Below, piece by piece: positions 566 through 60,784 of a stretch of 64,000 bases of DNA (positions are counted from its first letter, which is position 1; every line of letters begins with the position of its first letter). The stretch covers positions 59,148,782-59,212,781 of the forward strand of contig NC_083344.1 of NCBI RefSeq assembly GCF_019175385.1. Reading direction: 5' to 3'. A model generated the notes under the pieces. The model saw only the letters and a list, made by a program, of their open reading frames with translations, ran no database searches and was not told the DNA's origin. Origin of the DNA: Lycium barbarum (taxonomy: Eukaryota; Streptophyta; Magnoliopsida; Solanales; Solanaceae). The translations under genes and the position numbers were made by a program.

Positions 566-577
566 TGGTATCAGAGC
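566..577 (+). other. A1 primer-binding site (initiator Met-tRNA)
   Basis: TGGTATCAGAGC is complementary to the 3' end of plant initiator Met-tRNA and primes minus-strand cDNA synthesis. It begins four bases after the LTR terminus. Confidence 0.95.
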
Positions 578-618
578 GGTTTGTCCTCGGAATGTCTACA
601 GGCCGTGTCTCGTAGAGT

Positions 619-658
619 CTTGTTTATCGATGTGTTGTGCACCACGTCTATAAGCAGG
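619..658 (+). promoter_or_regulatory. A1 leader hairpin with palindromic loop (dimer-initiation-like)
   Basis: Outer arms CTTGTTTAT (619-627) and ATAAGCAGG (650-658) pair with G-U wobbles. After one mismatch, inner arms GATGTG (629-634) and CACGTC (643-648) pair. The apical loop is 8 nt and ends in GTGCAC (637-642), which is self-complementary. The same structure follows the primer site in every family here, at 14686-14725, 21564-21603, 35464-35503, 45445-45483 and 60745-60784 on +, and at 32632-32670 and 49176-49215 on -. The loop hexamer is GTGCAC in A and F and GCCGGC in B and C. Role as an RNA dimer or packaging signal is inference by analogy with the HIV-1 dimer-initiation loop. Confidence 0.7.
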
Positions 659-679
659 AAGCTACAGGGCATTTAGGAT

Positions 680-762
680 GTTACTTTCTTTGTAATCTTA
701 GATCGTGCGATAGAGCTGAGCTATTAGGATGATTTTGATCTGACTCGCCTTCGTGTTTGCAG
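680..762 (+). other. Candidate 3' splice sites upstream of A1 gag
   Basis: A pyrimidine-rich stretch ends in TTAG at 701, followed by a conserved ATCGTGCGATAGAGC segment. A second acceptor-like TTTGCAG ends at 762, three bases before the gag ATG. Families B and F keep the first TTAG and the segment; in E the acceptor reads TTAAG before the segment, and in C the TTAG is lost. Use of these acceptors is not shown by sequence alone. Confidence 0.35.
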
Positions 763-764
763 TG

Positions 765-2468
765 ATGCCTCCGAAGAAGGCAACGGCGGCCCAGAAGGGC
801 AAGGCGAGGATTGGAGAGACTAGCCAGGCACAGCGAGCTACCCGGGCTCGTGTTTATGATTTGCCTGAGGATGTGCCACAGTCTGAGGGGTCTGCTACAC
901 CCCCACCAGTACAACCTGAAGTAGGACCTTCGGCAGCTCCAGAGGTCCGTGTACCCGCACCTGAGGCTCCAGCTCCTCAGCCAGGGGCGGAGGATCGGAC
1001 CCTGAGGGAGGCTGTACAGTTGCTGACTACGCTGGTAGCAGGACAGGCTCGCAGACGCGGGCGGAGGGATGATGATGACGATGACAGGCGGGACAGCCTG
1101 CGAGTTCGGGAGTTTCTGTTGTGTGGGCCTCCAGAGTTCTTCGGGTCTAAGCCCGATGAGGACCCCCATGACTTTATTCGGGGGATGCGACGCTCACTGG
1201 ACCTGGTCAGGGCTTCTGAGACCGAGTCAGTTGAGCTGGCTTCACACAGGCTCCGAGATGTGGCTACTCATTGGTACGAGACTTGGGAGCTATCTAGGGG
1301 AGAGGGTGCCCCTCCAGCCACTTGGGATCAGTTTGTGACAGCATTCACCTGCCACTTTTTGCCACCAGAGTTACGGCGGGCACGAGCTGATCGGTTTTTA
1401 CGTCTGCAGCAGAGGGGTCGGAGTGTTCGCGAGTATAGCCTTGAGTTTGATTCTCTGGCCCGATATGCACCGGCCGTGGTAGCAGATATGTCCGATCGGA
1501 TGCACCGCTATGTTATGGGATTGGACCGGTATTTGGTAGACAGCTGTATGGCCGTGTCACTGCAGACAGATATGGATATTTCCCGGCTTCAGGCCTATGC
1601 GATGGGTATGGAGGACCGTCGTAGATCTGATCCTGCTGGCAGAGATCGAGACAGGAGGCCGCCCAAGAGGGCTAGATCCGCGGGTTACTCAAGAGATTCT
1701 CGAGGCGGACAGCATCAGCAGCAGCAGCAGTCTGATAGATATTTTCCTCCCTCCGGCCGGGGTACTCAGTCAGGCAGCCGGAGATTCGACAGTACGGGAC
1801 CGTCTGGGGCCGGTCAGAGCTCCAGAGCGGCAGGATCGCAGGTATCCAGGGGTCCCAGTCAGGCCAGACCACCTAGACCCCGTTGTCCACATTGCGGGAA
1901 GTCTCATCCCGGGGAGTGTTACCGAGCGACGGGAGCTTGTTTTTCTTGTGGCGGTCAGGGCCACTTTATGAGAGACTGCCCATTGGCTAGCGGTTCGGGT
2001 AGTGCGGCTCAGCAGACAGGGTCAGCCGCTGGTTCTTCCTCTGTCCCATCTACTGCACGCCCTGGAGGGCGGGGTATTCCAGCACCGGCAGGGCGCGGTC
2101 GAGGCCGCGGTGGCGCTTCAAGTTCTAGCGGTCCCTCGAACCGCATATATGCTTTGGCCAGCCGCCAGGATCAGGAGGCTTCGCCAAACGTTGTCACAGG
2201 TACATTACTGGTTTTCTCCAGATCTGTATATGCTTTGATTGACCCTGGCTCTACTTTATCATATATTTCCCCGCTCGTTGCTAGTAAGATTGGGATAGTG
2301 TCTGAGCCTATAGAGCCATTTGAGGTAGCCACGCCAGTTGGGGATTTTATTGTAGCGAGACAGATCTATAGGGATTGTTCTGTGACCATTTATGATCGTG
2401 CCACTAAGGCTGATTTGATAGAGTTAGACATGCTTGAGTTTGACGTCATTATGGGTATGGACTGGTAG
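765..2468 (+). CDS. gag: A1 gag and aspartic protease polyprotein
   Basis: About 567 codons from the ATG of MPPKK. An in-frame GTG four codons upstream gives a longer open frame, but the ATG matches A3 and the gag start of E. Order: basic and Pro/Ala-rich N-terminus, acidic DDDDD stretch near residue 110, capsid-like retrotransposon gag domain (about 125-300), Gln/Ser-rich linker, then two zinc knuckles near 375-410. The second knuckle is the classical CX2CX4HX4C. A retroviral-type aspartic protease follows with active-site DPGS near 498. Gag packages genomic RNA in cytoplasmic particles and the protease matures it. A TAG at 2466-2468 ends the frame straight after GMDW, where related elements read through into RT in the same frame. 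Confidence 0.9.
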   Translation: MPPKKATAAQKGKARIGETSQAQRATRARVYDLPEDVPQSEGSATPPPVQPEVGPSAAPEVRVPAPEAPAPQPGAEDRTLREAVQLLTTLVAGQARRRGRRDDDDDDRRDSLRVREFLLCGPPEFFGSKPDEDPHDFIRGMRRSLDLVRASETESVELASHRLRDVATHWYETWELSRGEGAPPATWDQFVTAFTCHFLPPELRRARADRFLRLQQRGRSVREYSLEFDSLARYAPAVVADMSDRMHRYVMGLDRYLVDSCMAVSLQTDMDISRLQAYAMGMEDRRRSDPAGRDRDRRPPKRARSAGYSRDSRGGQHQQQQQSDRYFPPSGRGTQSGSRRFDSTGPSGAGQSSRAAGSQVSRGPSQARPPRPRCPHCGKSHPGECYRATGACFSCGGQGHFMRDCPLASGSGSAAQQTGSAAGSSSVPSTARPGGRGIPAPAGRGRGRGGASSSSGPSNRIYALASRQDQEASPNVVTGTLLVFSRSVYALIDPGSTLSYISPLVASKIGIVSEPIEPFEVATPVGDFIVARQIYRDCSVTIYDRATKADLIELDMLEFDVIMGMDW

Positions 2469-3881
2469 TCTTCCTGTTATGCTATTGTCGACTGCCAGAA
2501 AAAGGTAGTCCGTTTTCAGTTTCCAGGGGAACCAGTCATAGAGTGGTTCGGATCTACTGCATCGCCGAGGGGTAAGTTTATTTCATACCTCAAGGCTAAG
2601 AAGATGATCCAGAAGGGTTACATCTATCATTTGGTTCGTGTGCACGATACTGCAGCGGAGGTACCTACTCTTCAGTCTGTCCCGGTCGTCAGTGAGTTTC
2701 CAGATGTTTTTCCTGATGAACTTCCTGGCCTTCCGCCTGAGCGGGAGATTGATTTTTCTATAGAGTTGATGCCGGATACGCAGCCTATATCTATTCCTCC
2801 GTACAGGATGGCACCGGCTGAGTTGAAGGAGTTGAAGGAGCATCTTAAAGATTTGCTGGATAAGGGCTTCATCAGGCCCAGCACATCACCCTGGAGAGCG
2901 CCGGTATTATTTGTCAGAAAGAAGGATGGGTCGTTGCGGATGTGTATTGACTACCGGCAACTGAATAAGGTGACTATTAAGAATAAATATCCCCTTCCCC
3001 GGATTGATGACTTGTTTGATCAGCTGCAGGGTGCTAGACACTTCTCCAAGATAGATCTGCGCTCAGGCTATCATCAGGTGCGAGTACGGGAGTCCGATAT
3101 CCCGAAGACTGCTTTCAGGACCCGGTACGGGCATTATGAGTTCAGAGTTATGTCTTTCGGGCTGACTAATGCTCCCGCAGTATTTATGGATCTGATGAAC
3201 CGGGTATTTCGGCCTTTTCTGGATATGTTTGTTATTGTATTTATTGATGATATTCTGATTTACTCGCGCTCAGCCGAGGAGCATTCAGATCATTTTAGGA
3301 CAGTACTTGGCATTCTCCGTCAGCAGAAGTTATATGCTAAATTCTCTAAATGCGAGTTCTGGTTGACTTCTGTGGCATTCTTGGGTCATATTGTCGGCGC
3401 AGACGGTATTCGGGTCGACACGCAGAAGATTGAGGCTGTGCAGAATTGGCCCAGGCCTACTACACCGACTGAGGTGCGCAGTTTTCTGGGATTGGCTGGG
3501 TATTATCGCAGGTTTGTGGAGGACTTCTCTTCCATTGCAGCACCACTGACGAGGCTTACCCAGAAAGCAGCAAAATTCCAGTGGTCAGATGCCTGCGAGC
3601 GCAGCTTTCAGATGCTGAAGGAGAGATTGATTACAGCGCCAGTTTTGGCTCTTCCAGAGGGGTCTGATGGGTATGTTGTATATTGTGACGCCTCTGGTAT
3701 TGGGATAGGATGTGTATTGATGCAGCACGGTCGAGTTATAGCCTATGCTTCCCGGCAGCTCAGACCGCACGAGAAGAACTATCCCACTCATGATCTTGAG
3801 TTGGCCGCGGTGATTCATGCATTGAAGATTTGGCGGCATTATTTTATATGGGGTCCATGTGGATATCTATACGGACCATAA
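2469..3881 (+). pseudogene. pol: A1 pol, first part: reverse transcriptase and most of RNase H
   Basis: The frame is the same as gag and has no further stop until a frameshift. Internal ATG 2604 is unlikely to be a real start. RT motifs appear in order: [12 protein letters not shown] (near 2930), SGYHQV (near 3060) and the catalytic FIDDILIYS (near 3240). RNase H follows with YCDAS (near 3680) and DLELAA (near 3795). Near 3842 a run of four T, against three in A2 and A3, shifts the frame, so this ORF ends in an unrelated tail at 3881 and loses the third RNase H acidic residue. Copies RNA to cDNA and removes the RNA strand. Considered broken because of the stop at 2466 and the frameshift. Confidence 0.9.
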
Positions 3882-5601
3882 GAGCCTCCAGTATATTTTT
3901 AAGCAGAAGGAGCTGAATCTGCGGCAGCGGAGATGGCTTGAGCTACTAAAGGATTACGATGTTGATATTCTGTACCATCCAGGGAAAGCCAACGTGGTAG
4001 CTGACGCGCTTAGCCGCAAGTCCGTAGGCAGTCTGGCTGATGTTCCATCTGATAAGAGAGATCTGGTTCGTGATATTCATCAGCTGGCCAGCCTCGGAGT
4101 TCGTTTGGCCGATTCTGGAGATTCTGGGATTTCTGTTCGCCCAGTTGCTGAGTCATCTATTATTCAGGAGGTAAAGCAGCGCCAGTTTCAGGATCCTCTT
4201 TTGATTCAGTACAGAGATGTGGCCCTTAATAAGACAAAGACCCAGTTTGAAATCTCGCCTGAAGGAGTATTATTGTACGACGGCAGGTTCTGTGTACCGG
4301 ACGTTGCGGGCATACGGCGGCAGATTATGGGCGAGGCACACTATGCCCGGTATTCTGTTCACCCTGGTTCCACTAAGATGTATCGGGACCTCAGGTGTTT
4401 GTATTGGTGGGACGGCATGAAGAAAGACATTGCTGAGTTTATTAGTCCGTGGCCGAACTGCCAGCAAGTCAAGGTCGAGCACCAGAAGCCCGGTGGCTTG
4501 TTACAGGAGATGGAGATTCCAGCCTGGAAATGGGAGATGATTAATATGGACTTCATTGTTGGGTTGCCGCGTACTCTACGCAGGTACGACTCTAATTGGG
4601 TTATTGTGGACAGGCTGACAAAATCAGCCCATTTCCTTCCGGTCCGGACTACATTTTCGGCTGAGGACTATGCCAGATTATACATCAGAGAGATAGTCAG
4701 ACTTCACGGGGTCCCTGTATCTATTATTACTGACCGAGGTGCTCAGTTTACAGCTAATTTCTGGAGGTCATTCCAGGAGGGATTAGGGACCCAGGTGACC
4801 CTCAGTACAGCTTTCCATCCTCAGACCGACGGGCAGGCCGAGCGCACTATCCAGACGCTCGAGGATATGTTACGGGCTTGCGTTATTGATTTCAGGGGCA
4901 GCTGGGATGATCATTTTCCACTTATAGAGTTTGCTTACAATAACAGTTATCACTCCAGCATTCAGATGGCCCCGTATGAGGCCCTTTATGGCAGGAGATG
5001 CAGATCTCCTATTGGCTGGTTTGACGTGGGCGAGACTAAGCTGATTGGGCCAGATGTGATCCAGGAGGCTGTGGATAAGGTGAAGCTCATTCGGGAGCGA
5101 TTGTTAGCTGCTCAGAGTCGACAGAAAGCGTATGCTGATAGGAGACGTCGACCGTTGGAGTTCCAGACTGGTGACTGGGTATTCCTGAAGGTGTCGCCTA
5201 TGAAGGGCGTTATGAGATTTGGCAGGAAGGGTAAGCTGAGTCCGCGGTACATCGGGCCATACCAGATTGTTCGGAGGATAGGCGCAGTCGCCTACGAGCT
5301 AGACTTGCCATCCGATTTGGAGTCCGTGCACCCGGTGTTTCATGTATCTATGCTGCGGAAATGTATTGGTGACCCTTCCAGGGTATTCCCAGTAGATGAT
5401 CTTCAGGTGACGGAGCAGCTATCTTATGACGAGCAGCCAATATCTATTCTGGATCGTCAGGTGAGGAGATTGCGCACTAAAGAGGTGCCTTCGGTCAAGG
5501 TTCTGTGGCGCAATAACAATCGGGAAGAGATGACTTGGGAGGCGGATGATGAGATGAAGAAGAGATTCCCCCATTTATTCCCTACGCCTCCTGTAATCTA
5601 G
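3859..5601 (+). pseudogene. pol: A1 pol, second part: RNase H end, integrase, GPY/F and chromodomain-like tail
   Basis: The frame resumes at YTDHKSLQ, the RNase H end. The integrase N-terminal zinc region is present but its first Cys is Trp (PWPNC; A2 has QCPNC), so zinc binding is probably lost. The catalytic triad is visible: Asp in MDFIVG (near 4549), Asp in TDRGAQF (near 4732) and Glu in GQAERTI (near 4840), at the expected D-35-E spacing. The GPY/F motif is at about 5245-5320. The last 55 codons (LDRQVRRLR to WEADDEM...PHLF) resemble the chromodomain-like end of Tekay/Del integrases, which in the family guides insertion to heterochromatin. Ends at TAG 5599-5601. Confidence 0.9.
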
Positions 5602-7107: not shown

Positions 7108-8075
7108 GTATGTAAAGCTTCCCACTCCTTCATTTGGCATATCCTAGTGTACTGGTAGAATATGAGACCTCCCGGAGCATTTCTGCTCCTCGAAACCCGA
7201 TCCACAGAAAAGTTACTATTCATTCAATTCGATTGAAGCCTAAAGGCACCCTTTTGGCTAGAATGCCACTATTCGTCCGAAACCTATCGTAATGTGGTCG
7301 GGTAACCTAGAAATGATTATGTATAACCCTTGGCATATAACTGCTCGTAAAAATATGTTCGCCACCTCACTTCGACTCGAGGTGGATTCGCTACCCCAAA
7401 ATGCCCGATTTGCCTTCGGGCCATCTTTGAGAATAAAGTTGAAAGTACTACTTCTGATCTTTGGAACATCCTCCTACGGGGTATGTTGGGACTATTCGAT
7501 GCGCAAATCTATGTTTTGAACTATATGGACCATTTTGGAATCGTTTTGCAAAATGAAACTTTATGTCGGCTAAGTAATCGACTATTTTGTATTCTAATAT
7601 GACTTATGAGTTCACTTCGCTTTGAAAGACTATTTTGAAATACGATTTGCATTTGTTTGCTCACGACTCCGCTCGTGCCTTATTATGACTTCGTCCACCG
7701 GTTCCCGGGCCGGTTTTGATTCGTGCGCTGTATGATAAATTCGGCTGTATGCTGTGTTACGGTTCCCGAGGCTTCGCCATAGGGCCCGGTTCCGTTTGGA
7801 GTTATGCTGTGATATGGCTCGGGACGCGATACGCTCACCGATGATTATGATTATGTTCGGGGATGTACGGAGATTTGAAACCTTCTGGTGTTATGCTGTG
7901 TGTGGCGCCAGCGTCGGAGTGGCGACCACGTTCTTAAGCGTTTGCATGATTTTATTTGCATAAAATATATGTATATGATTCCGATGCAGATTTGACATAC
8001 CAGTTTGTACCCCACTTTGATATCTGATTTGCTTTCGGTTTTGATCCATAATTCTGTACTCCGTGCTTTACATGC

Positions 8076-8113
8076 TCAGTACATATTTCGTACTGACCCC
8101 CTCTCTCCGGGGG
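8076..8113 (+). promoter_or_regulatory. LTR double hairpin, reference copy in A1
   Basis: Hairpin 1: TCAGTAC, 7-nt loop, GTACTGA. Hairpin 2 follows directly: CCCCC, 7-nt loop, GGGGG. Other copies on +: 6-43, 13697-13734, 21038-21075, 35116-35153, 41800-41837, 44210-44247, 44934-44973, 57130-57167, 60119-60156. On -: 27350-27387, 46750-46787, 49733-49770. Every family has it, about 0.4-0.6 kb before the LTR end. Function unknown; an RNA structure in the R or U5 region is likely given the covariation in E. Confidence 0.7.
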
Positions 8114-8632
8114 CTGCGTTTTATGCCCGCAGGTGCAGACATCGGTGATCCTCCGCAGTAGGCTTCACTTCTTGCTTTCCGGAGTACTCTTATTTGGTCC
8201 GGAGTCCACTCTTGGTACAGACTCCTCTACTCTGTATATACTTTGTATATTTGACAGTTGGGTACGACGGGGCCCTGTCTCGCCATATGTTATGTTTTGA
8301 ATTCGTAGAGGCCTGTAGTCATCTTTGTGGGGTGAGGGTCCTATGTGTATGTTGTCTGATTTTGCTTTCGGGTCTTAAAGCGGTCTGTTTGATATGATGG
8401 CCCCAAATGGCCCTTCTGTATATATTTGTATTTTGACCGGCGATGCCTATTCCGCCGCTTTGTTAGAGTTTGATTTGATATGACCGCTTAAGACATGTTT
8501 TCGAGATAAATTATGTTTGATATAACTTTTTGAAAAATTCTGAAATAAGTTTGGATTCGGAAATGAATATGCGATTTGGTCTGGGTACCCAGGTAGGGTG
8601 CTAGTCGCGGCCCACGGGGCTGGGTCGTGACA

Positions 8633-11203
8633 ATATCCCCTCCCCCGGATTGATGACTTGTTTGATCAGCTGCAGGATGCTAAATATTTTTCGAAGATAG
8701 ATCTGCGCTCAGGTTATCATCAGGTGCGAGTACGGGAGTCAGATATCCCGAAGACCGCTTTCAGGACCCGGTACGGGCATTATGAGTTCAGAGTTATGTC
8801 TTTCGGGCTGACTAATTCTCCAGTGGTATTTATGGATCTGATGAACCGGGTATTTCGGCCTTTTCTGGATATGTTTGTTATTGTGTTTATTGATGATATT
8901 TTGATTTACTCGCGATCAGCCGAGGAGCATTCAGATCATTTGAGGACGGTACTTGGCGTTCTCCGTCAGCAGAAGTTATATGCTAAATTCTCTAAATGTG
9001 AATTCTGGTTGACTTCTGTGGCATTCTTGGGCCATATTGTCGGCGCAGACGGTATTCGGGTCGATACGCAGAAGATTGAGGCTGTGCAGAATTGGCCCAG
9101 GCCTACTACTCCGACAGAAGTGCACAGTTTCTTGGATTGGCCGGGTATTATCGCAGGTTCGTGGAGGATTTTTCTTCTATTGCAGTACCACTGACGAGGC
9201 TTACTCAGAAAGCAGCAAAATTCCAGTGGACCGATGCCTGCGAGCGCAGCTTTCAGATGCTGAAAGAGAGATTGATTACAGCACCAGTTTTGGCTCTTCC
9301 AGAGGGATCTGACGGGTATGTTGTCTATTGTGACGCCTCTGGTATAGGGATAGGTTGTGTATTGATGCAGCACGGTCGAGTCATAGCCTATGCTTCCCGG
9401 CAGCTCAGACCGCACGAGAAGAACTATCCCACTCATGATCTTGAGTTGGCCGCGGTGATTCATACTTTGAAGATTTGGCGGCATTATTTATATGGGGTCC
9501 ATGTTGATATCTATACGGACCACAAGAGTCTCTAGTATATTTTTAAGCAGAAGGAACTAAATTTGCGGCAGCGGCGATGGCTTGAGTTACTAAAGGACTA
9601 CGACGTTGATATTCTATACCATCCGGAGAAAGCCAATGTGGTAGCTGACGCGCTTAGCCGCAAGTCCGTGGGCAGTCTGGCTGATGTTCCATCTGATAAG
9701 AAAGATTTGGTTCGTGATATTCATCAGCTGGCCAGCCTCGGAGTTCGTTTGGTGGATTCTGGAGATTCTGGGATTTCTGTTCGTCCAGTTGCTGAGTCAT
9801 CTATTATTCAGGAGGTAAAGCAGCGCCAGTTTGAAGATCCTCTTTTGATTCAGTACAGATATGTGGCCCTTAATAAAGCAAAGACTCAGTTTGAGATCTC
9901 GCCTGAAGGAGTATTATTATATGATGGAAGATTCTGTGTACCGGACGTTGCGGGCTTACGGCGGCAGATTATGGGCGAGGCACATAATGCACGGTATTCT
10001 GTTCATCCTGGTTCCACTAAGATGTATCGGGATCTCAGGTGTTTGTATTGGTGGGACGGCATGAAGAAAGATATTGCCGAGTTTGTTAGTCAGTGCCCGA
10101 ACTGCCAGCAAGTTAAGATCGAGCATCAGAAGCCTGGTGGATTGTTACAGGAGATGGAGATTCCAGCCTGGAAATGGGAGATGATTAATATGGACTTCAT
10201 TGTTGGGTTACCGCGTACTCTACGCAGGTACGACTCTATTTGGGTTATTGTGGACAGGCTGACGAAATCAGCCCATTTCCTTCCGGTCCGGACTACTTAT
10301 TTGGCTGAGGACTATGCCAGATTATATATCAGAGAGATAGTCAGACTGCATGGGGTCCCTGTATCTATTATTACTGACCGAGGTGCCCAGTTTACAGCTA
10401 ACTTCTGGAGGTCATTTCAGGAGGGATTAGGGACTCAGGTGAGCCTCAGTACAGCTTTTCATCCTCAGACCGACGGGCAGGCCGAGCGCACTATTCAGAC
10501 GCTCGAAGATATGTTACGGGCCTGCGTTATTGATTTCAGGGGCAGCTGGGATGATCATTTGCCGCTTATCGAGTTTGCTTATAATAACAGTTATCACTCC
10601 AGCATTCAGATGGCTCCGTACGAGGCCCTTTATGGCAGGAGATGCAGATCTCCTATTGGCTGGTTTGACGTTGGCGAGACTAAGCTGATTAGGCCAGATG
10701 TGATCCAGGAAGATATAGACAAGGTGAAACTTATTCGGGAACGATTATTGGCTGCTCAGAGTCGACAGAAAGCTTATGCTGATAGACGACGTCGACCGTT
10801 AGAGTTCCAGATTGGTGGCTGGGTATTCCTGAAGGTGTCGCCCATGAAGGGTGTTATGAGATTTGGCAGAAAGGGTAAGTTGAGCCCGCGGTATATTGGG
10901 CTAGACTTACCATCCGATTTGGAGGCTGTATACCCGGTATTTCATGTGTCTATGCTGCGGAAGTGCATTGGTTATCCTTCCAGGATATTCCCAGTAGATG
11001 ACCTTCAGGTGATGCAGCAGTTGTCTTATGACGAGCAGCCTGTATCTATTCTGGATCGTCAGGTAAGGAGATTGCGCACCAAGGAGGTGCCTTCTGTCAA
11101 AGTTCTGTGGCGCAATAATAACCGGGAAGAGATGACTTGGGAGGCGGAGGATGAGATGAAGAAGAGATTCCCCCATTTATTCCCTACGCCTCTTGTAGTC
11201 TAG
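8633..11203 (+). pseudogene. pol: A2 pol fragment: RT, RNase H, integrase (frameshifted)
   Basis: RT starts in the middle ([12 protein letters not shown]) and keeps FIDDILIYS (near 8886). A 1-base loss near 9128 shifts the frame. RNase H reads in the new frame, and a C-to-T change makes TAG at 9533-9535 after HKSL. From 9536 the frame is open to TAG 11201-11203. The integrase zinc region is intact (HX4H and CPNC) and the D, D, E residues are present (near 10195, 10377, 10485). An in-frame 42-bp loss near 10898 removes 14 codons of the GPY/F motif. Non-functional. Confidence 0.92.
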
Positions 11204-14627: not shown

Positions 14628-15549
14628 AAGTGGTATCAGAGCAGGTCGTCCTAGGGGTTGTCTGCAATGTCGTGTCCAGTAGAGTCCTGTTTATGGGTGT
14701 GAAGCCGGCCACATTTATAAACAGGAGGCTGCAGGGCATCTAGGGATTGTTGACTTTCTTTTTGTCTTAGATCGTGCGATAGAGCCAATTCATAGGAAAT
14801 GAGATTCCTGGCACTAACCCTTGATTTTAGCAAATGCACAGTATCGACGGGAGAAGATGAATGAAGATATGGAAAGTCACAAGGGTAAGTTCTGATATTT
14901 TCATTCTTTTACCTGAAATTGGGAGCTCTAGGTGGCTGAAATGTGTCGTATACATATGTATGCCCTGTGAGGCATTGTTGGTATTTGCTGCGTGCAGATT
15001 CTGAATAGTAAGAATTGTAAAGGAGATTCTGCCAGAATTTTTCAAAATCAGGTCATTTAGTTAGGTACGCCTAACAGAAGGAAGCGTAGAAAGGGAATAT
15101 TGTAAATAGACAATAAGTGAGGTGCGTTGTTCTAAAGGAGTTATGGATTTGGCATGGCATGAAGAATAATTGCAAAAAAGACGATTAGCATCCGAAGGAT
15201 TAAGATGGACAACATTCGAGGTTTAGTAGGAGCAAGGTCTGTTGGAGGATTTAGAGAAAGTCGGCAATCAGTTTTGCTGTAGATTATTATATAAGGATGG
15301 TGAGTGGGAATCCAAACAGGCTGATACCCGAGTATTCATAAGTAACGACAACAAAGGTGTGTTCACTACCATCGGGAATCTAGGAATCTAGGACGAAAGG
15401 TAGTCATACACATAAGTTAAAGGTGAATATTGAGGATTGAAATGGGTAAAATAGTAATTGTAAAGGGAAGGACGTGTTACGAGAATGTCTTGGAATCTGT
15501 AAGACTTCGACTTGCTCCAGATCATGTAATGAAGGTCATGCAATGAGGT

Positions 15550-15653
15550 GGGTGCGATTATACCAGCACTAATGCACCGGATTTCATCGGAGTTTCAAGG
15601 TTAAGCGTGCTGGGGTGAGAGAAATCTTAGGATGGGTGACCCCCTGGGAAGTG
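15550..15653 (+). ncRNA. 5S rRNA-derived segment in B internal domain 1
   Basis: Colinear with plant 5S rRNA from position 1 (GGGTGCGATTATACCAGCAC) to about 100. It includes the A-box region (GTTAAGCGTGCT), GAGAG and the C-box region (GGATGGGTGACC, CCTGGGAAGT), with no indel between A and C boxes. The last 20 or so bases of 5S are missing. Same strand as the element. It is a derived copy, not a ribosomal gene. It could still bind TFIIIA or ribosomal protein L5, or recruit Pol III (inference). Confidence 0.85.
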
Positions 15654-18600
15654 CACTAAAAGTTCTGCAAAAGCAGACATAAAAGAAAAAAAAATGAGAA
15701 GCTAGAGTAGCCTAAGGGAAATCAGATTATACGGAATAGCTGGAAACCTTAAGAGGTTGCATAAGACGAGGTAGACTAGATCGGTGAAGAGAAAGAAGGT
15801 GCACCACGACTCTAGAACTAGGAAGAGGTTGAATAGCATTTGGAAATATTTTGTAAGCGAGGTGGTAGTAAATATATATATATGTATGCATATGGTATCC
15901 TATTTATGACTGTATCGATGGGCATGTGTATCCCAGCAACCGGTGTTACAGTATGGAAGGCATCAATAAAGTAAGGGTACCGAAGTTCAAGTGACAACAA
16001 AAATAAACGGTACAAGTGTTACAAGGTAAGCTGATGCTATTTTCACTACAGGTTAAGATTGGAAAGTTCTAATACAATGATATTTGGAAAAGAAAGAGAG
16101 TGAGTAAGTAGAAGGCAAGGAGATCAAAATGTTGGGAAAAGTGAAAAGCAAGAAACATGATTGAGTAAAGCCTCCAAAAGAAACGACGGGCAAAGCACGA
16201 GACTATTTGGGGGAAAAATTCGAAAGTAGGCATATGAAGGGGATAGAGTATGGTAATATGGAACAAAAGAGGAATATGAAGTAAGAGAAGGAATGATTAA
16301 GCCTTGCGTCGATGTTAGGAGATTTCGGCCCTTGAAAGGTATATAAAGGGATAAATGTGTGCCATATTAATGTGGTTGCCTCAGACATGGAGGAGCTTTC
16401 CTGAAAGAATGACTTAAGAATAGGAAGGATTTGCGCGTCTAAAGCGATATTTCACGAACTTCAGAGCCGATGTTACAAATAACAAGAGAAGAAAGGAACT
16501 CGAGGAGGAATAGACCCAAGGAAGGTTAAGGATGAAAGTAGGAAAGGTATACTAATGGGTTTGTCGAAGAAAGAGGAGAGCATTTAGGAATGGAGTAACT
16601 GGAAATCTCTAACTATGGGAGTAAGAAGGATACTTTAACTAAATGACGGTAGGAGACCGATTACTCATCAAGGAAAGAACGAGGATGGTGAGTTGACACA
16701 ATTGATTAGAATATTAGTGATATGAGTCAAGAACTTCTGTAAAGACCGAAAGGTTCGATTATAAAGGAAATAGAATGAAATGTAAGAAACGTGATTGGAG
16801 GAGAAGACAAACTTGGCCGTGGCAACAAAACGATAAATAAAGGATTGATCGGGATGGATAACTACAAGGGAAATGCGACGAGTCTATTAGTAAAACGAAG
16901 TAACATCGTGACGGGGACAGGGGCATATAATACTAAGGTTTGTAATGAATGTGAATAACTTGGTAAAACAACTTATGTGGTAAGTGTAATAGGGTCAATT
17001 AGAAAGAGTTACCAGTTAAGTAAGCTTACTCTACGAGCCTTATTCTGTTTTATAAGCAGTGTTATGAATGAGATCAAGAAATGGTACTCTATAGAGTTGA
17101 TTATGATTGGGATATAATGAGAACGTAGCAAGAACTACAATAAAAAGTAAGGAATAGCAAGGAAACGACTAAGAGAGGTGACATGCTTTATGTGAATAGA
17201 GAGTGAATGCAAGTGTGAAACCAATAAGCGAGCCACGAAGCAGTGAATAAGAAATCTTATAAGACCTTGTTAAGGAAAGTTCGGCATAGAGGTTTTTGCA
17301 ATAACAGGACTAATAAAGCAAGGATGTGCTAAAGGAAAAGTGGACTTGAATTAACTCCATGTATATAATGAAACCGACATGGGAAAGAGGCGTGACAAGA
17401 TAATAGAGGTTTATAAAATCAAGGAAATAAATTTTGTCAATACAATATGTCATGTTTCGGGCTATAGTTCGAATCCCTCACACCAGAGAAAAATATTGTG
17501 TTACCAGTAAATATGCAGCAGATGTACCCCAAAAGGAAACGAAGGAAGTGAAAGGCCTACGAGCGATTAAGGATAAGTATTAAGGACAGACGGGACTACT
17601 AAGGAAAAATCGCAGCTCTGGAAGAGATGAGAGTTGAAAATATCTTCTACGTCGGGAAATTATAAGTCACTGCTTGTATTAAATCACGAGAGTATGTGTC
17701 ACAGGACCATATGAATAGTTGTCCTGATGAAGTGGCTAGTAAAATGGTGTAGGACGACAACAAATATTTAAAAAGAATGAAAGTTAGTAAAGTTGCAATT
17801 AACCACTGGTATAGGAGAGCCAAGGACTTGAAGAGAGAAGTACACTCGTATTAAAAGGAAGATATGATTAAGTAAGATTTTATTTGAGTCCCCGGCTTAT
17901 GAGTTATCTTGTAATGATGTCCAAATCGGACGAGAACAAAAAGGAAGAAGGATTCAAATAAGGATTTGAAAATATTTTGAATGGTGGATTAGTATGTTGT
18001 AAATATACTCCTGTGATAGGGGATAACAACGGTGATATGAAAATGTTGTACACAAAAATATAAGGAATGGCGCTGAGGATTGTTGTATGAGTCGAATGGA
18101 GTCCCATATGAATATAGATCCGTTTGCTATGGTATTTTTGGTGCCTTGGATGAGTAATCCGAGGTAAAGTAATTAAAGAGAATAATAAAACGTTGATAAG
18201 AATTGTCGTGAGATAGCCAAGGCCCAGAAATCCAATTGGAGGAAAGAGAAATCAAACGAGATGTTTCGGTGTTAAACTAGTCGAAAGACAAAGTACCGCA
18301 AAGATTGATTCGACTGCTACAGAAAGAAAATGATGCTAAATGTGATTAGCCTTGAGGTTATCCTTAAGGAAGTAAGAATAAGAATAATTCAACTTTAAGA
18401 AGATAAAGGCTTGGGTCATCTAGGAAACGTAAGGAAGACACGTGGAGATTGAAGGGAACAAAAAGAAGATAAAACAAAAGGATTGGATAAAAGTATGTTG
18501 TAAATACGGCATGAAAGGGCATGCAAGAATGTAAACAACGAAAGCTGAAGAGGCAATGAGAACGATAAAGTATAAACAGTTAGTAGACAGACATATAATG

Positions 18601-18795: not shown

Positions 18796-21505
18796 TGTTA
18801 TACCCCGCATTTTCAGAGCATGAGCATGATATGTGCTTCCTAAAAAAAAATTGAAAAACATTGACAATTATGTTGTTGCTACGTAATTTAAACTCACGTT
18901 GATAGTGTTGTATCCCGTATTTTAGTACGTCGGATTATTTGTAAGCTGAGGTGGGGCCCACACGTCGAGATTTTTTTGGACATGTGAAAAATTATATGAA
19001 GCACATATGTGAATTTAAACACAACTCAAGAACGACCCTTGAGCCAAATCGAAGTGGAAGTCCTCCAAACAAATATTTTTAAGTAACGATTTCGGGTGAT
19101 CTGACTTCAAGGGGAAAAAACGGTATTATAAGTTTGGAATTTGGAACAATACCAAGCAATGGAAGTTGTAGATAATTGAATTATCTTTCCAAAAAAAGGT
19201 CTTGGGTCCACAGGTTACGTCGGCACAAAGAGATATGGACGTTTTAAGGCAGAAAGGTCCGTGGGCTAGGCCCAATCAGAGCCCAACCGGGTTGGGCCCA
19301 TGACCCATGTTTATTTAAGTGAAACTTCGGCCCTTTTCTCCTCAATTTTCATACCAAAACACCAGAAAATTCTGGAAAAAGAGAAAGAGGAGCCTTGGAG
19401 AGAAGAAAAACCAATTTTGACCAAAATCTGAGCCCTGAATCCCGAAGCCCATGAAGGGAAAAGTGTTGTACGCTGCGTTGTCTTCAATCTGAGCTAAAAA
19501 TAAATCAATAAAAAGAGGATGGACGTGATGGCTGCACACTTGGGGTAAGCTTACGATCCCTTTTCATTGTTAACAAGTTTATTTAAAGTTTTAACGAATT
19601 AGAACGGAGAAAATAGCGATATAAATTCGTTTGTTGATGTTGTTGAATTATGGTTTGAGTTTGAGGAGAACTTTGGATAAAATATATATATATATATTTC
19701 TTGTAGGATGTTATTATTAATGTTATTGGTAATTATTTCAGCTTCTCTACGGAAATAAAATTACTAAATAGTTATACCGCAAATTGGTTGGTTGAGAAAT
19801 TTACAAACAAGTGTGTGGGTTATTCTTTGGCATACGTTGGTATTGGAAATGATGTTAATACTATTGGTATTGTTGTTGATGTTGTTGGTTGCTGAATTGG
19901 AATTCGGGCTAGGCATATAAACAGGGGAGATGCTGCCCGATTTTCGGCAGGATATAAAATAGTATGATTTCAAATATGGTACAAATGTGCGATGAAATGG
20001 CTAACATTAGCATAAATCCCTTCAAATGTAGATTTACGAGCTCAGAATAATAAGCATAGCTAATAGGAGGTTGAACAGGTATGTAAGGCTTACCCTTTCT
20101 TTCTTATGGCATGATCCTTATGAAATAAACAGACGATGTGTATATGACTCCAAAGAAATTCCTATTCTTAGAGCCACTAGGATGGCTAATGTTCTTGATT
20201 TCCATAAGCTATTCTGTATGGTTTTGATACGTATCTATGATTTTCGGAGTTCTATTTGATATGTTTCCGAGTGGGATTCGAAAGATATTTGATATGACAA
20301 TTTTCTTGATTTCAAATGATAGTTCGTTTTGATAATTTCATTGAGTCTTTGATATATCTTGGTACGTATATATGATCCCAGAAGTTCTGTTCTGATATAA
20401 TCCACAGTGACATCCGAAAGGTATTTAATATGACTATCGTCCTGATTCTCAAATGACAATTCGTTTTGATTATTCCATTGAGTCTTTGATAATGTTTTAA
20501 TTTGTATATGGTTGCTCACTACTCTACTCGTGCATGCCTCAATATGTCTTTCACCGAGTCCCGGGCCGGGTATGTTGTCGTGCGCACTCCACTGCATTGT
20601 TCACCGAGTCCCTCACTAGAGGGCCGGGTACGGTATGTATATATATGATGACATGATGAGATGATGATATGTTATGGCGGCCAGGAGGGCATATGATGAC
20701 TTCATTCGCCGAGTCCCTCACTAGAGGGCCGGGTACGGTATATATATGCATGATGATATGATAGTATGCTGACATGATGACATGATTTTATCCACCGAGT
20801 CCCTCACTAGAGGGCCGGGTACGGTATATATATGCATTATGATATGATAGTATGCTGACATGATGATATGATTTTATCCACCGAGTCCCATAATGGGCCG
20901 GGTATGGTATATGATGATGGTATGCATGATTTTCTTTTCAAAAGGCATATGTATTGATGTTTTAAAAATCATACTTGTTTCTAGTAAATCTCCATTTTGG
21001 TTATGATCCTCTTTACGGTATATCATGCTTTACATGCTCAGTACATATTCCGTATAGACCCCCTTTCTTCGGGGGCTGCGTTTCATGCCACGCAGGTACA
21101 TACAGATGAGAAGAAGACATTGCTAGAAGATGTTCCAGCGGGATTGGCGAGCTCCATTTCCTTCCGGAGTGTTGCCGAGTCAGAGTACATATATATATAT
21201 ATGTTATGATTTCTTGATTGATGTTAGAGACTTTGCAGACAGAGTCACGTATGTGGGTTGTCAGTCTTGTAACCTCTACAAGCCGATGTACCATTATGCA
21301 TTATGTTGCAAATTCCATATGATTACAGATTTTACTTGACTTGAGAACAGCGTAAGGAATGTTTCTGAAAGCCTTTACTATGCATTTGGGTTTATTTGAT
21401 TTAAAAGTCCAAAGAGATTATGAGTGTAATAAGAATCAGTGGGTTCGCTCGGCCCTAAATAAGGGTTGCGTGCCCATCATGCCCTATCATGGTTAGGGTG
21501 TGACA
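18796..21505 (+). repeat. B LTR 1 (intact, 2,710 bp), shared by units 1 and 2
   Basis: Starts TGTTATACCCCG directly after a polypurine tract and ends GTGTGACA directly before a primer site, so it serves as 3' LTR of one unit and 5' LTR of the next. At 18906 a second LTR-start-like sequence (TGTTGTATCCCG) begins, homologous to the start of LTR G. Donor-like GGGGTAAGC at 19545, exon-like block 20032-20078, tandem hairpin repeats 20552-20912, double hairpin 21038-21075 with a weakened first stem. Confidence 0.92.
20552..20912 (+). repeat. B LTR tandem repeats with hairpin cores
   Basis: Five units begin CACCGAGTCCC (CGCCGAG in one) at 20552, 20602, 20706, 20793 and 20879, with AT-rich spacers of 50-104 bp spacing. 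Cores are CCCTC-ACTA-GAGGG, CCCA-TAA-TGGG or CCCGGG, followed by GCCGGGTA. Core bases change while the inverted symmetry is kept. Copies also occur in the other B LTRs, and related cores in LTRs A, D and F. Confidence 0.75.
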
Positions 21506-24500
21506 AAGTGGTATCAGAGCAGGTCGTCCTAGGGGTTGTCTGCAAAGTCGTGTCCAGTAGAGTCCTGTTTATGGGTGTGAAGCCGGCCACATTTATAAAC
21601 AGGAGGCTGCAGGGCATCTAGGGATTGTTGACCTTCTTTTTGTCTTAGATCGTGCGATAGAGCCAAGTCATAGGAAATGAGATTCCTGGCACTAACCCTT
21701 GATTTTAGCAAATGCACAGTATCGACGGGAGAAGATGAATGAAGATATGGAAAGTCACAAGGGTAAGTTCTGATATTTTCATTCTTTTACCTGAAATTGG
21801 GAGCTCTAGGTGGCTGAAATGTGCCGTATACATATGTATGCCCTGTGAGGCATTGTTGGTATTTGCTGCGTGCAGATTCTGAATAGTAAGAATTGTAAAG
21901 GAGATTCTGCCAGAATTATTCAAAATCAGGTCATTTAGTTAGGTATGCCTAACAGAAGGAAGCGTGGAAAGGGAATATTGTAAATAAACAATAAGTGAGG
22001 TGCGTTGTTCTAGAGGAGTTATGGAATTGGCATGGCATGAAGAATAATTGCAAGAAAGACGATTAGCAGCCGCAGGATTAAGATGGACAACATTCGAGGT
22101 TTAGTAGGAGCAAGGTCTGTTGGAGCATTTAGAGAAAGTCGGCAATCAGTTTTGCTGTAGATTATTATATAAGGATGGTGAGTGGGAATCCGAACAGGCT
22201 GTTACCCGAGTATTCATAAGTAACGACAACAAAGATGTGTTCACTACCATCGGGAATCTAGGAATCTAGGACGAAAGGTAGTCATACGCATAAGTTAAAG
22301 GTGAATATTGAGGATTGAAAAGGGTAAAATAGTAATTGTAAAGGGAAGGACATGTTATGAGAATGTCTTGGAATCTGTAAGACTTCGACTTGCTCCAGAT
22401 CATGTAATGAAGGTCATGCAATGAGGTGGGTGTGATTATACCAGCACTAATGCACCGGATTTCATCGGAGTTTCAAGGTTAAGCGTGCTGGGGTGAGAGA
22501 AATCTTAGGGCAAAGCACGAGACTATTTGGGGGAAAAATTCGAAGGTAGGCATATGAAGGGGATAGAGTATGGTAATATGGAACAAAAGCGAAATATGAA
22601 GTAAGAGAAGGAATGATTAAGCCATGCGTCGATGTTAGGAGATTTCGGCCCTTGAAAAGTATATAAAGGGATAAATGTGCGGCCATATTAATGTGGTTGG
22701 CTCAGACATGGAGGAGCTTTCCTGAAAGAATGACTTAAGAATAGGACGGATTTGTGCGTCTATAGGAATATTTCACGAACTTCAGAGCCGATGTTACAAA
22801 TAACAAGAGAAGAAAGGAACTCGAGGAGGAATAGACCCAAGGAAGGTTAAGGATGAAAGTAGGAAAGGTATACTAATGGGTTTGTCGAAGAAAGAGGAGA
22901 GCATTTAGGAATGGAGTAACTGGAAATCTCTAACTATGGGAGTAAGAAGGATACTTTAACTAAATGACGGTAGGAGACCGATTACTCATCAAGGAAAGAA
23001 CGAGGACGGTGAGTTGACACAATTGATTAGAATATTAGTGATATGAGGCAAGAACTTCTGTAAAGCCCGAAAGGTTCGATTATAAAGGAAAAAGAATGAA
23101 ATGTAAGAAACGTGCATGGAGGAGAAGACAAACTTGGCCGTGGCATCAAAAAGATAAATAAAGGATTGATCGGGATGGATAACTACAAGGGAAATGCGAC
23201 GAGTCTATTAGTAAAACGAAGTAACAGCGTGACGGGGACAGGGGCATATAATACTAAGGTTTGTAATGAATGTGAATAACTTGGTAAGACAACTTATGTG
23301 GTAAGTATAATAGGGTCAATTAGAAAGAGTTACCAGTTAAGTAAGCTTACTCCACGAGCCTTATTCTATTTTATAAGTAGTGTTACGAATGAGATCAAGA
23401 AATGGTACTCTATAGAGTTTATTATGATTGGGATATAATGAGAACGTAGCAAGAACTACAATACAAAGTAAGGAATAGCGAGGACACGACTAAGAGAGGT
23501 GACATGCTTTATGTGAATAGAGAGTGAATGCAAGTGTGAAACCAATAAGCGAGCCACAAAGCAGTGAATAAGAAAGCTTATAAGACCTTGTTAAGGAAAG
23601 TTCGGCACAGAGGTTTTTGCAATTACATGACTAATAAAGCAAGGATGTGCTAAAGGAAAAGTGGACTTGAATTAACTTCATGTATATCATGAAACCGACA
23701 TGGGAAGGAGGCATGTCAAGATAATAGAGGTTTATAAAATAAAGGAAATAAATTTTGTCAATACAATATGTCATGTTTCGGGCTATAGTTCGAATCCCTC
23801 ACATCAGAGAAAAATATTGTGTTACCAGTAAATATGCAGCAGATGTACCCCAAAAGGCAACGAAGGAAGTGAGAAGGCCTACGAGCGATTAAGGATAAGT
23901 ATTAAGGACAGACGGGACTACTAAGGAAAAATCACAGCTCTGGAAGAGATGAGAGTTGAAAATATCTTCTACGTCGGGAAATTATAAGTCACTGCTTGTA
24001 TTAAATCACGAGAATATGTGTCACAGGACCATATGAATAGTTGTCCTGATGAAGTGGCTAGTAAAATGCTGTAGGATGATAACAAATATTTGAAAAGAAT
24101 GAAAGTTAGTTAAGTTGCAATTAACCACTGGTATAGGAGAGCCAAGGACTTGAAGAGAGAAGTACACTCGTATTAAAAGGAAGATATGATTAAGTAAGAT
24201 TTTATTTGAGTCCCCGGCTTATGAGTTATCTTGTAATGATGTCCAAATCGGACGAGAAAAAAAAGGAAGAAGGATTCAAATAAGGATTTGAAAATATTTT
24301 GAATGGTGGATTAGTATGTTGTAAATATACTCTAGTGATAGGGGATAACAACGGTGATAAGAAAATGTTGTACACAAAAATATAAGGATGAGTACACAAA
24401 AATATAAGGAATGGCGCTGAGGATTGTTGTATGAGTCGAATGGAGTCCCATATGAATATAGATCCGTTTGCTATGGTATTTTTGGTGCCTTGGATGAGTA

Positions 24501-29900: not shown

Positions 29901-30676
29901 ACACGACTACACACACCAATACACACATGTTTCACAAATTTCACTCATTTCTACATACTACAATACTTCAACAATATTCATAACACAGAAAAGAGGGTTA
30001 GTTCTTTACCTTCATTCTTCATCTTTTACACTTGGTTATGACTCATGAACCATCCATATAAGTATTCTACTTGCTCCAACAACTCCACCTTGTTGACAAG
30101 CATCTTTCCCATAGCAAGAAACTAGAAGAAAACAACCTTCCATGATCAAATTTGAGGGGCTGGTTCCTAGCCGAACTCACCTCTCTCTCTTTCTTTTATT
30201 TTTGTTCATCTTTATCTTGTCTTGAATTAGAAAGGGAGTCACATATATATAGTTATAATTTCAAGCATGTGAGGGGCACATGCCCCTCTCTAGAAGTTTC
30301 CTTTAATTTCTTGAAATTTTCCTAGCATAAAAAATGAACCAAAGTCTTGCCATGTACACCTTGGCCCATATAGTTTCCATCACATGGCCAATGTGGCCCT
30401 TTTGAACTTTCATAAAATTTTTGTGAAATTCCCGTTCCGTCCCTCGACTTTTCTCAATATGACCATTTTACCCCTAGCCTTCCACATTGTTTCCATTGGT
30501 CATTTTGCAAATTTCTCCTCTTGCCCCTAGGTTCTCACATTATTTTCATACTAATAATGGTCATAAATGATATTCTTAACGACTTGCGCATTAATGTAGT
30601 TTTTGAATATGGTTTCGTCCTTAACTTCCCACGACGACTTTGAAATATCCAAACGTTCAAAATACGGGCTATAACA
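26931..30676 (-). repeat. C 3' LTR (full length, 3,746 bp)
   Basis: Contains on the minus strand the double hairpin (27350-27387), hairpin-bearing tandem repeats (about 27658-28060), CCGGAATTTCGG box (29197-29208), donor-like GGTATGTGAGG (near 29032) and GGTAAAG (near 30008), and a promoter-like palindrome with TATATATA (about 30244-30290). Plus-strand short ORFs such as 28847-29143 are repeated in the other LTR and are not genes. Confidence 0.92.
27658..28060 (-). repeat. Short tandem repeats with hairpin arms in C LTR
   Basis: Units of about 55-60 bp carry CCTCGG...CCGAGG or CCCCGG...CCGGG arms around ACAAATAACACG-like loops (near 27665, 27717, 27771). A second pair of units lies near 27933 and 27995. 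They occupy the same LTR zone as the CACCGAGTCCC repeats of B. Confidence 0.6.
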
Positions 30677-30710
30677 TCCTCCCCCCTTTAGAACATTCGT
30701 CCTCGAATGT
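30677..30710 (-). promoter_or_regulatory. C polypurine tract with preceding hairpin
   Basis: On the minus strand: arms ACATTCG and CGAATGT with loop AGGA (30710-30693), then TCTAAAGGGGGGAGGA running into the LTR. Confidence 0.88.
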
Positions 30711-32044: not shown

Positions 32045-32714
32045 CAACTTCTGCGCATGATCTTTACTACATAATTTGAGGCTAGTCGAGGTCTTACAGA
32101 TCCCGGGACACCCTCGTAACACGTCTTTTCTTTCACAATTACCATTTTACCCTTTTTGGGCCTTAGAGCACATCTTTCACTTCCGTGTATAACTACCTTC
32201 CATCCTAGATTCCCAAATTCCTGATGGTAATGGTTATGGCCTCGTTGCCACTATGTTATGGTTGCCCCGATATCAGTCCGTTCGAATTTCTTACTTACCG
32301 TCTTTTCATAAAAACCGACAGCAGGATTAATTGTCAACTTTCTGAACCCTCCATCCGACCTTGTCTCTCTTATACCATACTCCTGTATACAGCAAATACC
32401 AGTGGCACCTTACAGAACATACAGCTATACCACGTTCTGGCCATCCGAAGCTGTTCATTCCAGATGATAGATCAAATACGTCAATGCTTATCCTTGTGAC
32501 TTTCCGGGTTGCTACTTACTTTTTCCGTCGTATGTGAGGCCCATATAAGAAATCTCATTTCCTATAGTTTGGCTCTATCGCACGATATATGTCAGAAAGA
32601 TGGTCAACAATTCCTAAATGCCCTGTAGTCTCTTGTTTATACATGTGGCCGGCACCACACCATAAACAGGACTCTACTAGACACGACTTTGCAGACAACC
32701 CACGGACAGACCTC

Positions 32715-32726
32715 GCTCTGATACCA
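32715..32726 (-). other. C primer-binding site
   Basis: Reverse complement of TGGTATCAGAGC, three bases from the 5' LTR terminus at 32730. Confidence 0.93.
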
Positions 32727-32729
32727 CTC

Positions 32730-35405: not shown

Positions 35406-36644
35406 AAGTGGTATCAGAGCAGGTCGTCCTAGGGGTTGTCTGCAAAGTCGTGTCCCGTAGAGTCCTGTTTATGGGTGTGAAGCCGGCCACATTTATAAAC
35501 AGAAGGCTGCAGGGCATCTAGGGATTGTTGACCTTCTTTTTGTCTTAGATCGTGCGATAGAGCCAAGTCATAGGAAATGAGATTCCTGGCACTAACCCTT
35601 GATTTTAGCAAATGCACAGTATCGACTGTAGAAGATGAATGAAGATATGGAAAGTCACAAGGGTAAGTTCTGATATTTTCATTCTTTTACCTGAAATTGG
35701 GAGCTCTAGGTGGCTGAAATGTGCCGTATACATATGTATGCCCTGTGAGGCATTGTTGTTATTTGCTGCGTGCAGATTCTGAATAGTAAGAATTGTAAAG
35801 GAGATTCTGCCAGAATTGTTAAAAATCAGGTCATTTAGTTAGGTACGCCTAACAGAAGGAAGCGTGGAAAGGGAATATTGTAAATAGACAATAAGTGAGG
35901 TGCGTTGTTCTAGAGGAGTTCTGGATTTGGCATGGCATGAAGAATAATTGCAAGAAAGACGATTAGCAGCCGAAGGATGAAGATGGACAATATTCGAGGT
36001 TTAGTAGGAGCAAGGTCTGTTGGAGGATTTAGAGAAAGTCGGCAATCAGTTTTGCTGTAGATTATTATATAAGGATGGTGAGTGGGAATCCGAACAGGCT
36101 GATACCCGAGTATTCATAAGTAACGGCGACAAAGGTGTGTTCACTACCTTCGGGAATCTAGGAATCTAGGACGAAAGGTAGTCATACACATAAGTGAAAG
36201 GTGAATATTGAGAATTGAAAAGGGTAAATTAGTAATTGTAAAGGGAAGGACGTGTTACGAGAATGTCTTGGAATCTGTAAGACTTCGACTTGCTCTAGAT
36301 CATGTAATGAAGGTCATGCAATGAGGTGGGTGCGATTATACCAACACTAATGCACCGGATTTCATCGGACTTTCAAGGTTAAGCGTGCTGGGGTGAGAGA
36401 AATCTTAGGATGGGTGACCCCCTGGGAAGTGCACTAAAAGTTCTACAAAACCCGACATAAAAGAAAAAAAATGAGAAGCTAGAGTAGCCTAAGGGAAATC
36501 AGAGTATACGGAATGGCTGGAAACCTTAAGAGGTCGCATAGGACGAGGTAGACTAGACCGGTGAAGAGAAAGAAGGTGCACCACGACTCTAGAACTAGGA
36601 TGAGGTTGAATAGCATTTGGAAATATTTTGTAAGCGAGGTGGTA

Positions 36645-45444: not shown

Positions 45445-45483
45445 CTTGTTTATGGTGTGTTGCACGCCACACTAATAAACAGG
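45445..45483 (+). promoter_or_regulatory. Element E leader hairpin
   Basis: Arms CTTGTTTAT/ATAAACAGG and GGTGTG/CACACT with one bulged A. The 8-nt loop (TTGCACGC) is one substitution away from keeping a fully self-complementary hexamer, in line with the decay of E. Confidence 0.6.
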
Positions 45484-48957: not shown

Positions 48958-49256
48958 ACCCCATCATCCGACGCGCTCCTCTTCATTATTTATCAACCTG
49001 CAATCACCTGCAGGAAGAGGGTCAGAAACATTTTCCCAAAATACCGACACTCCTGCTCTTTTGGAGCCTCGCTGTAGGTACAGCCATTCGTAGGGGAGAA
49101 TCGTCCTATTCATACAGCTTTATCGCACGATCTAAGATTCCAAAGAAGGGTAACATCCTAAATGCCCTGTAGCTCTCTGTTTATAGTTGTGGTGCACAAC
49201 ACATCGATAGACAAGACTCTACTAGACACGGCCTGTGGACATACCGAGGACTAACC

Positions 49257-49268
49257 GCTCTGATACCA
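49257..49268 (-). other. F primer-binding site
   Basis: Reverse complement of TGGTATCAGAGC, four bases from the LTR terminus at 49273. Confidence 0.93.
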
Positions 49269-60744: not shown

Positions 60745-60784
60745 CTTGTTTATCGATGTGTTGTGCACCACGTCTATAAGCAGG
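60745..60784 (+). promoter_or_regulatory. A3 leader hairpin with GTGCAC loop
   Basis: Identical in structure to the A1 copy; loop hexamer at 60763-60768. Acceptor-like TTAG follows at 60827. Confidence 0.7.

Follow-up and report, generated by a model that had tools for sequence, protein, structure and literature searches.

Dimer initiation in LTR retrotransposons has been worked out for the yeast elements Ty1 and Ty3 (PMC5454406, PMC11381356); here and below, statements on published systems refer to excerpts of the cited papers. In Ty3, the DS/PAL6 signal is a CUGCAG palindrome which lies towards the tip of a short hairpin and is required for 5' RNA dimers in vitro (PMC11381356). Kissing loops near the primer site have been proposed to start dimerisation in Ty1, and divergence of the Ty2 loop has been proposed to hinder co-packaging (PMC5454406). 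In HIV-1 the prevalent hexamers are GCGCGC, GUGCAC and GUGCGC, and the virus reportedly depends on the two central G-C pairs (PMC5874298). Barley BARE1/BARE2 includes a Gag-less plant parasite which is packaged in helper particles, with a mention of conserved dimerisation/packaging signals (PMC3735527). The Conserved Hairpin Site of fungal GalEa elements is a conserved hairpin with a palindrome right after the 5' LTR (PMC5445492). Searches of the open-access literature, which covers few subscription papers, list studies of fungal Copia elements, BARE, Ty1 and Ty3; no title or abstract opening among those listed reports such a site for plant Ty3/gypsy elements.

Like HIV-1 SL1/DIS, the plant leaders described here have a hairpin past the primer site whose loop contains a self-complementary hexamer (PMC5874298, PMC516450). 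The HIV-1 hexamers GCGCGC and GUGCAC are also the commonest ones in the plant leaders, GUGCGC is found once (leader L043), and every plant hexamer except TGATCA has a G-C centre, comparable to the central G-C pairs of HIV-1 (PMC5874298). Unlike SL1, the plant loop has 8 nt, no base is unpaired behind the hexamer, the two bases before it are purines in only 8 of 58 leaders and TT in 43, and there are more kinds of palindrome. Since flanking unpaired purines are not the rule, the plant site would work like SL1 without being filed as a lentiviral SL1, and the hexamers in common have presumably been reached by convergence. Ty3 is a Ty3/gypsy relative with a hairpin palindrome, but PAL6 is located at nt 391, apparently in the GAG frame, and the excerpt presents it for a single element, without covariation evidence (PMC11381356). 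Ty1 differs in having complementary 7-nt motifs in two separate loops, SL1a and SL3a (PMC5454406). BARE belongs to the Copia superfamily, and the excerpt describes no hairpin or palindrome (PMC3735527). The GalEa site replaces the primer site and has its palindrome in the stem, a feature which its authors contrast with a DIS (PMC5445492).

The window, by which we mean the whole stretch of 64,000 nucleotides analysed (contig C8, 59148782-59212781), is part of a 1.67 Gb genome and contains LTR retrotransposons. It has eight exact primer sites, and the GTAG arm of a hairpin starts about 35 bases past each of them. The features are as follows, with fold z-scores computed against dinucleotide shuffles.

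Starts 566, 14631, 21509, 35409, 45390 and 60692, + strand: exact primer sites (TGGTATCAGAGC), that of A1 covering 566..577
Starts 32726 and 49268, - strand: exact primer sites (TGGTATCAGAGC)
606..671, + strand: full hairpin domain of A1 (RNAalifold consensus, pair counts and single-sequence fold)
619..658, + strand: hairpin of A1, 15 pairs and 1 mismatch, -22.8 kcal/mol, z -4.9
637..642, + strand: loop hexamer GTGCAC of A1
60745..60784, + strand: hairpin of A3, identical in its letters (and fold) to A1, hexamer GTGCAC at 60763-60768
14686..14725, + strand: hairpin of B1, 16 pairs, -28.9 kcal/mol, z -6.0, hexamer GCCGGC
21564..21603, + strand: hairpin of B2, same values as B1, hexamer GCCGGC
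35464..35503, + strand: hairpin of B3, hexamer GCCGGC
32632..32670, - strand: hairpin of C, 13 pairs, -21.9 kcal/mol, z -4.4, hexamer GCCGGC partly absorbed into the stem
45445..45483, + strand: hairpin of E, 15 pairs, -20.7 kcal/mol, z -3.1, stem intact, loop hexamer GCACGC (a broken GCGCGC)
49176..49215, - strand: hairpin of F, 12 pairs and 4 mismatches, hexamer GTGCAC at 49192-49197
753..5601, + strand: coding part of A1, with gag-protease at 753-2468, reverse transcriptase-RNase H at 2604-3881 and integrase at 3859-5601

The Pfam models Retrotrans_gag, zf-CCHC, RVP_2, RVT_1 and Integrase_H2C2 exceed their cut-offs in A1, whose gag has a zinc knuckle. The Chromo model (cut-off 25.1) gives 21.8 bits in A1, below the cut-off, and 25.2 bits in A2, just above it. 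With reverse transcriptase, integrase and a chromodomain (sub-cut-off in A1) in one element, A has the make-up of a chromovirus, that is, a chromodomain Ty3/gypsy element, and may belong to the Tekay clade. In the partial copy A2 (from 8632) the LTR passes directly into pol, and both leader and gag are absent. E has a gag similar to that of A1. B, C and F present no similarity to A1 gag or pol at E 1e-4, in agreement with the earlier claim that they lack gag, and no family D has been identified in the window. The DNA common to A1 and B3 is limited to four tracts: 70–200 bases of LTR; some 210 bases which begin at the LTR end and take in primer site and leader; some 56 bases at 5700, PPT-like in their position; and some 85 bases near 7645. 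The leader is thus among the few parts which a coding and a non-coding element have both retained.

Some other features of these elements may be mentioned. There are LTR chains, in which one LTR is common to two neighbours (8071-8640 and 21143-21510): the LTR ending at 8633 continues straight into A2 pol, and that at 21143-21508 is common to B1 and B2. In C (26931-34945) the LTRs share 98.26% identity in a segment of 2065 bases and 97.4% in another of 153, and a stretch of about 1.5 kb (27084-28621) is found in the 3' copy only. The LTRs of F (46289-50442) are 99.66% identical over 1171 bases and contain 25-base tandem repeats; F starts where the gag similarity of E ends, so it seems to be inserted into that gag. 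A 5S rRNA-like segment is found in the internal region of B1 (15550-15668, 45.5 bits) and B3 (36328-36446, 42.2 bits), across the whole Rfam 5S model. Similar segments in L101 (5200-5309, - strand, 34.4 bits) and L102 (763-872, 29.5 bits) are both below the gathering score of 38, and DNA resembling the 5S-like region of B3 is found in C (31052-32376) and F (47421-47972). In Cassandra elements the 5S sequence is located in the LTRs, whereas the B1/B3-type segment is internal.

The full domain is larger than first described: It is formed by a base helix TGTCT/GGGCA, a helix GTAG/CTAC, a long helix and the 8-nt loop. The sequence-only reading had placed a hairpin with a 13–16 bp stem behind the primer site of every family. 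We find it at all eight exact primer sites, in A, B, C, E and F; "every family" applies to elements which retain the leader, which A2 does not. The stem length also agrees for A, B, C and E, while F falls short of it. A and B have the best-fitting hairpins, the stems of C and F are damaged and the loop of E is broken. The best fold of F is a different one (-11.5, z -0.2), and in that of C the stem takes up the final bases of the hexamer. The predicted probability that all six hexamer bases are unpaired is 0.93 for A, 0.99 for B, 0.88 for E, 0.28 for F and 0.000 for C. The hexamers had been read correctly, and E is the only window leader which has lost its palindrome, although its stem is intact and only the loop is broken; the lost palindrome, GCGCGC, is a third one, absent from the window. 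The proposed covariation of the outer arms is, strictly taken, not found in the window, where two-sided changes are present in 0 of 25 stem pairs (one-sided variation in 8) and in two of the three hexamer pairs. Rfam gives no match at the hairpin at gathering thresholds.

We have used a larger sample from a single genome, mostly from the first 14 Mb of contig C1, where about 100 primer-site matches were listed; a looser primer-site pattern has about 41,600 matches in the genome. We picked 51 leaders by their family-like bases after the primer site, before any hairpin had been seen, and 28 others were also taken. The hairpin is present in 50 of the 51, with the loop 70–73 bases from the start of the primer site, and the hexamer at that exact place is a perfect palindrome (GTGCAC, GCGCGC or GCCGGC) in 43 of these 50; the figure for the window is seven of eight. 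Applying the same caller, the best loop is palindromic in 44 of the 51 family loci (including L058) versus 1 of 16 unrelated primer-site loci. Two arbitrary 10-kb places, scanned on both strands, give palindromes in 19 of 284 scanning windows, and in 5 of the 56 with strong stems.

Our alignment contains 57 leaders, 49 from the genome sample and 8 from the window; L058, which has no family leader, and L054, a near-copy of L053, were omitted. GTGCAC is found in 29 of them, GCGCGC in 15 and GCCGGC in 5; the other eight hexamers are singletons: GCACGC (E), ATGCAC, ACGCGC, GTGCGC (L043), GTACAC, GTGAAC, ACGCAC and GCGCTC. GCGCGC had been proposed as the source of the E hexamer before the genome was sampled, it then turned out to be the second commonest, and E nests within the GCGCGC clade (support 97/87).

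Other collections have added little. In viral contigs, two leader patterns and one integrase-region ORF gave no matches, and none of the 12 stretches with the primer-site pattern has a leader. Four stretches matched in a further genome contig collection, none of them a leader, and there was no match in plasmids and phages. A protein search with the leader peptide detected six short proteins (E up to 1). Five of them span the loop, and all five fit GTGCAC or GCCGGC at the peptide level, a weak agreement since a peptide leaves the bases unfixed.

The evolution of the hexamer was followed on a tree of the 57 leaders, from which the loops had been excluded. The best tree requires 5 changes from palindrome to palindrome among the three palindromes, or 13 counting broken forms. 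Each of the eight broken hexamers occupies a tip of its own, so breakage is limited to single copies. Many branches are weak; the starred branches alone force three changes for the GTGCAC label, three for GCGCGC and one for GCCGGC. Among palindromic rows, sites 2 and 5 change four times each and sites 3 and 4 twice each, and the pairs which they form change equally often. Neutral drift was simulated on this tree (Jukes-Cantor, GTGCAC root, no CpG bias, four rates with 2,000 runs each): None of the 8,000 runs reached 49 palindromic tips of three kinds, and tips with a shared broken hexamer averaged 18.6–35.0 in the simulations versus 0 observed. The claim that the hexamer was swapped between lineages while remaining self-complementary is thus borne out: Self-complementarity is conserved, rather than the letters themselves.

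Methylation-driven C to T decay at CpG is another way to obtain paired changes, which would then be mutational: Two hits turn GCGCGC into GTGCAC. The two commonest hexamers are separated by exactly such hits, and those of E and L043 are one hit away from GCGCGC. Nevertheless, each one-hit form is found once in 57 leaders and is shared by no two tips, versus 29 cases of the two-hit form GTGCAC. Furthermore, two such hits on GCGCGC do not yield GCCGGC, GAGCTC, GACGTC, GGCGCC or TGATCA. We consider this explanation extremely unlikely.

The stem has been analysed in larger samples, and there two-sided changes do appear. In the 54 distinct leaders, 95.0% of the cells are paired (93.0 after shuffling), 9 of 28 pairs are two-sided (shuffled 3.3) and there are 42 two-sided cells (shuffled 12.8). 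The hexamer alone has 25 two-sided cells (shuffled 9.4), as high as in 0 of 500 shuffles; its number of two-sided pairs, 2 versus 1.2, is reached by 121 of 500 shuffles and is not unusual. A second alignment combined 13 chosen class-1 leaders of the 58, all palindromic, with six CCTAGG-class leaders, and omitted L078, L080, L085 and the TGATCA class. As its rows were chosen to be palindromic, the 100% hexamer pairing there is a matter of choice, and the stem counts are the result: 13 of 28 pairs are two-sided (shuffled 8.5), with 51 cells (shuffled 17.1) and a covariation score of 0.407, versus 0.237 when shuffled and at most 0.138 when slid.

The G-U pairs and the covariation place the action in RNA. 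Perfect six-base palindromes would also suit a dimeric protein which binds the hexamer as double-stranded DNA. On the other hand, the letters differ between lineages, and the loop which contains the hexamer caps a stem maintained with the help of many G-U pairs, a kind of pairing meaningful in RNA; the probability of such a DNA-level site is close to negligible. A different possibility is a packaging hairpin whose stem is bound as a monomer by Gag or a host protein, the palindrome being incidental. A kept and covarying stem fits this idea, as does the zinc knuckle in the gag of A1, but it leaves unexplained why the loop letters change while self-complementarity stays, and we think it very unlikely. 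It does not explain either why there are so many palindromes, as the other leader classes illustrate.

Other Ty3/gypsy classes share the hairpin: A leader of the same build is found in 12 of the 28 other primer-site loci, and 9 of the 12 have a palindrome in their best loop: GAGCTC in L079, L081, L082 and L084, GACGTC in L083, GGCGCC in L080 and TGATCA in L086-L088. In the other three, GACGTC occurs in the second-best hairpin of L069, the hexamer of L078 is AACGTC, and a duplication has broken the hairpin of L085, which contains GAGCTC. Seven different palindromes are therefore present in one genome. Some of these leaders belong to coding elements: The L086 locus (L099, TGATCA) encodes gag, protease, reverse transcriptase, integrase and chromodomain, and the L082 locus (L097, GAGCTC) encodes protease, reverse transcriptase and integrase. 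Their reverse transcriptases are 74% and 64% identical to that of A1, respectively. In L098 (the locus of L083, GACGTC) there is only weak similarity to reverse transcriptase within the 5.5 kb examined.

The hairpin is present in young copies. A matching 3' LTR end was found in 11 of 20 long loci, with 94.5–100% identity (three at 100%; L020 over 78 bases only). Palindromic loops are present in all 20, and thus in all 11 datable copies; the dated set consists of long loci, and the seven genome copies with a broken hexamer, sampled as 321-base stretches, are outside it. As a separate observation, the LTR ends of L027 and L035 are identical over 596 bases, and both match gag and part of the protease, with reverse transcriptase and integrase unmatched, so they look like gag-only elements.

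Elements with no gag or pol similarity also retain the leader hairpin, although they share little else with coding ones. In L102 (GCGCGC) the sole A1 remnant is the integrase/chromodomain end (3290-3435, 54 residues matched at 50% across two frames), which hints at a chromovirus origin of this non-coding group. This distribution also bears on translation control, in which a short upstream ORF would end at the stem foot and ribosomes would shunt over the stem. Such an ORF exists in A, from an ATG past the primer site to a TAG at the stem foot. We have rejected this explanation, which has next to no probability: An ATG between primer site and stem is found in just 26 of 58 leaders (a count which does not cover LTR-initiated ORFs), the hairpin is kept by elements without gag/pol similarity, and the palindromes would be unexplained.

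The sequence-only reading also suggested that compatible hexamers match helper to parasite. This is not supported: GTGCAC occurs with or without gag or pol similarity in the element (without it in L018, L025 and F), and so does GCGCGC (without it in L017 and L036). GCCGGC was seen in five elements, B1-B3, C and L061/L101, all without gag/pol similarity, so B and C match no sampled coding element by hexamer. In the tree the F leader groups within the GTGCAC clade to which A belongs; the hexamer which they share thus reflects descent. We have rejected helper-parasite matching on both grounds; a self-complementary hexamer requires no partner element.

We propose that the genomic RNA of these elements uses the hairpin as its dimer initiation site, and would put the probability at roughly 0.87. 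The proposal was already made from the window and is supported by the stem covariation and the palindromic loops of datable copies; the dimer itself is a prediction, and pairing, timing, Gag binding and packaging are part of the model. Within an 8-nt loop, a six-base palindrome is unable to fold back on itself, so it is readable only by a second molecule. A stem of some 25 pairs, in the position which the site has in retroviruses, would display the hexamer, two like RNA molecules would join through their hexamers as kissing loops, and the complex may perhaps open into a longer duplex. The paired RNA would be what Gag packages and reverse transcriptase copies. Predicted self-duplexes of the bare hexamers have -7.9 (GUGCAC), -10.9 (GCGCGC) and -11.7 kcal/mol (GCCGGC), and the bare GUGCAC/GCCGGC heteroduplex -2.2. 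Several facts count against a dimer initiation site: the poor stem of F despite its near-identical LTRs, the partly hidden hexamer of C, the broken hexamers of E and 7 of 50 genome leaders, and the two CpG-type changes which separate GTGCAC from GCGCGC.

A further step would be to consider the hexamer as a self-recognition tag: Lineages would repeatedly switch palindrome and pair their RNA solely with their own kind. We regard this as rather unlikely. L017, a non-coding GCGCGC element, adjoins the GTGCAC clade. If the tag were real, the non-coding parasites B, C and L061, with GCCGGC, and L017, with GCGCGC, would escape pairing and recombination with the helper which supplies their proteins, and several mutually exclusive types of RNA pairing would coexist in the same genome.

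In summary, this genome has in effect run a compensatory-mutation experiment in many copies, which makes the site, its stem and the accepted hexamers testable at once. A dimer initiation site of this kind would give a handle on the packaging of gag-less elements, and would be an independent case of arriving at hexamers known from HIV-1.
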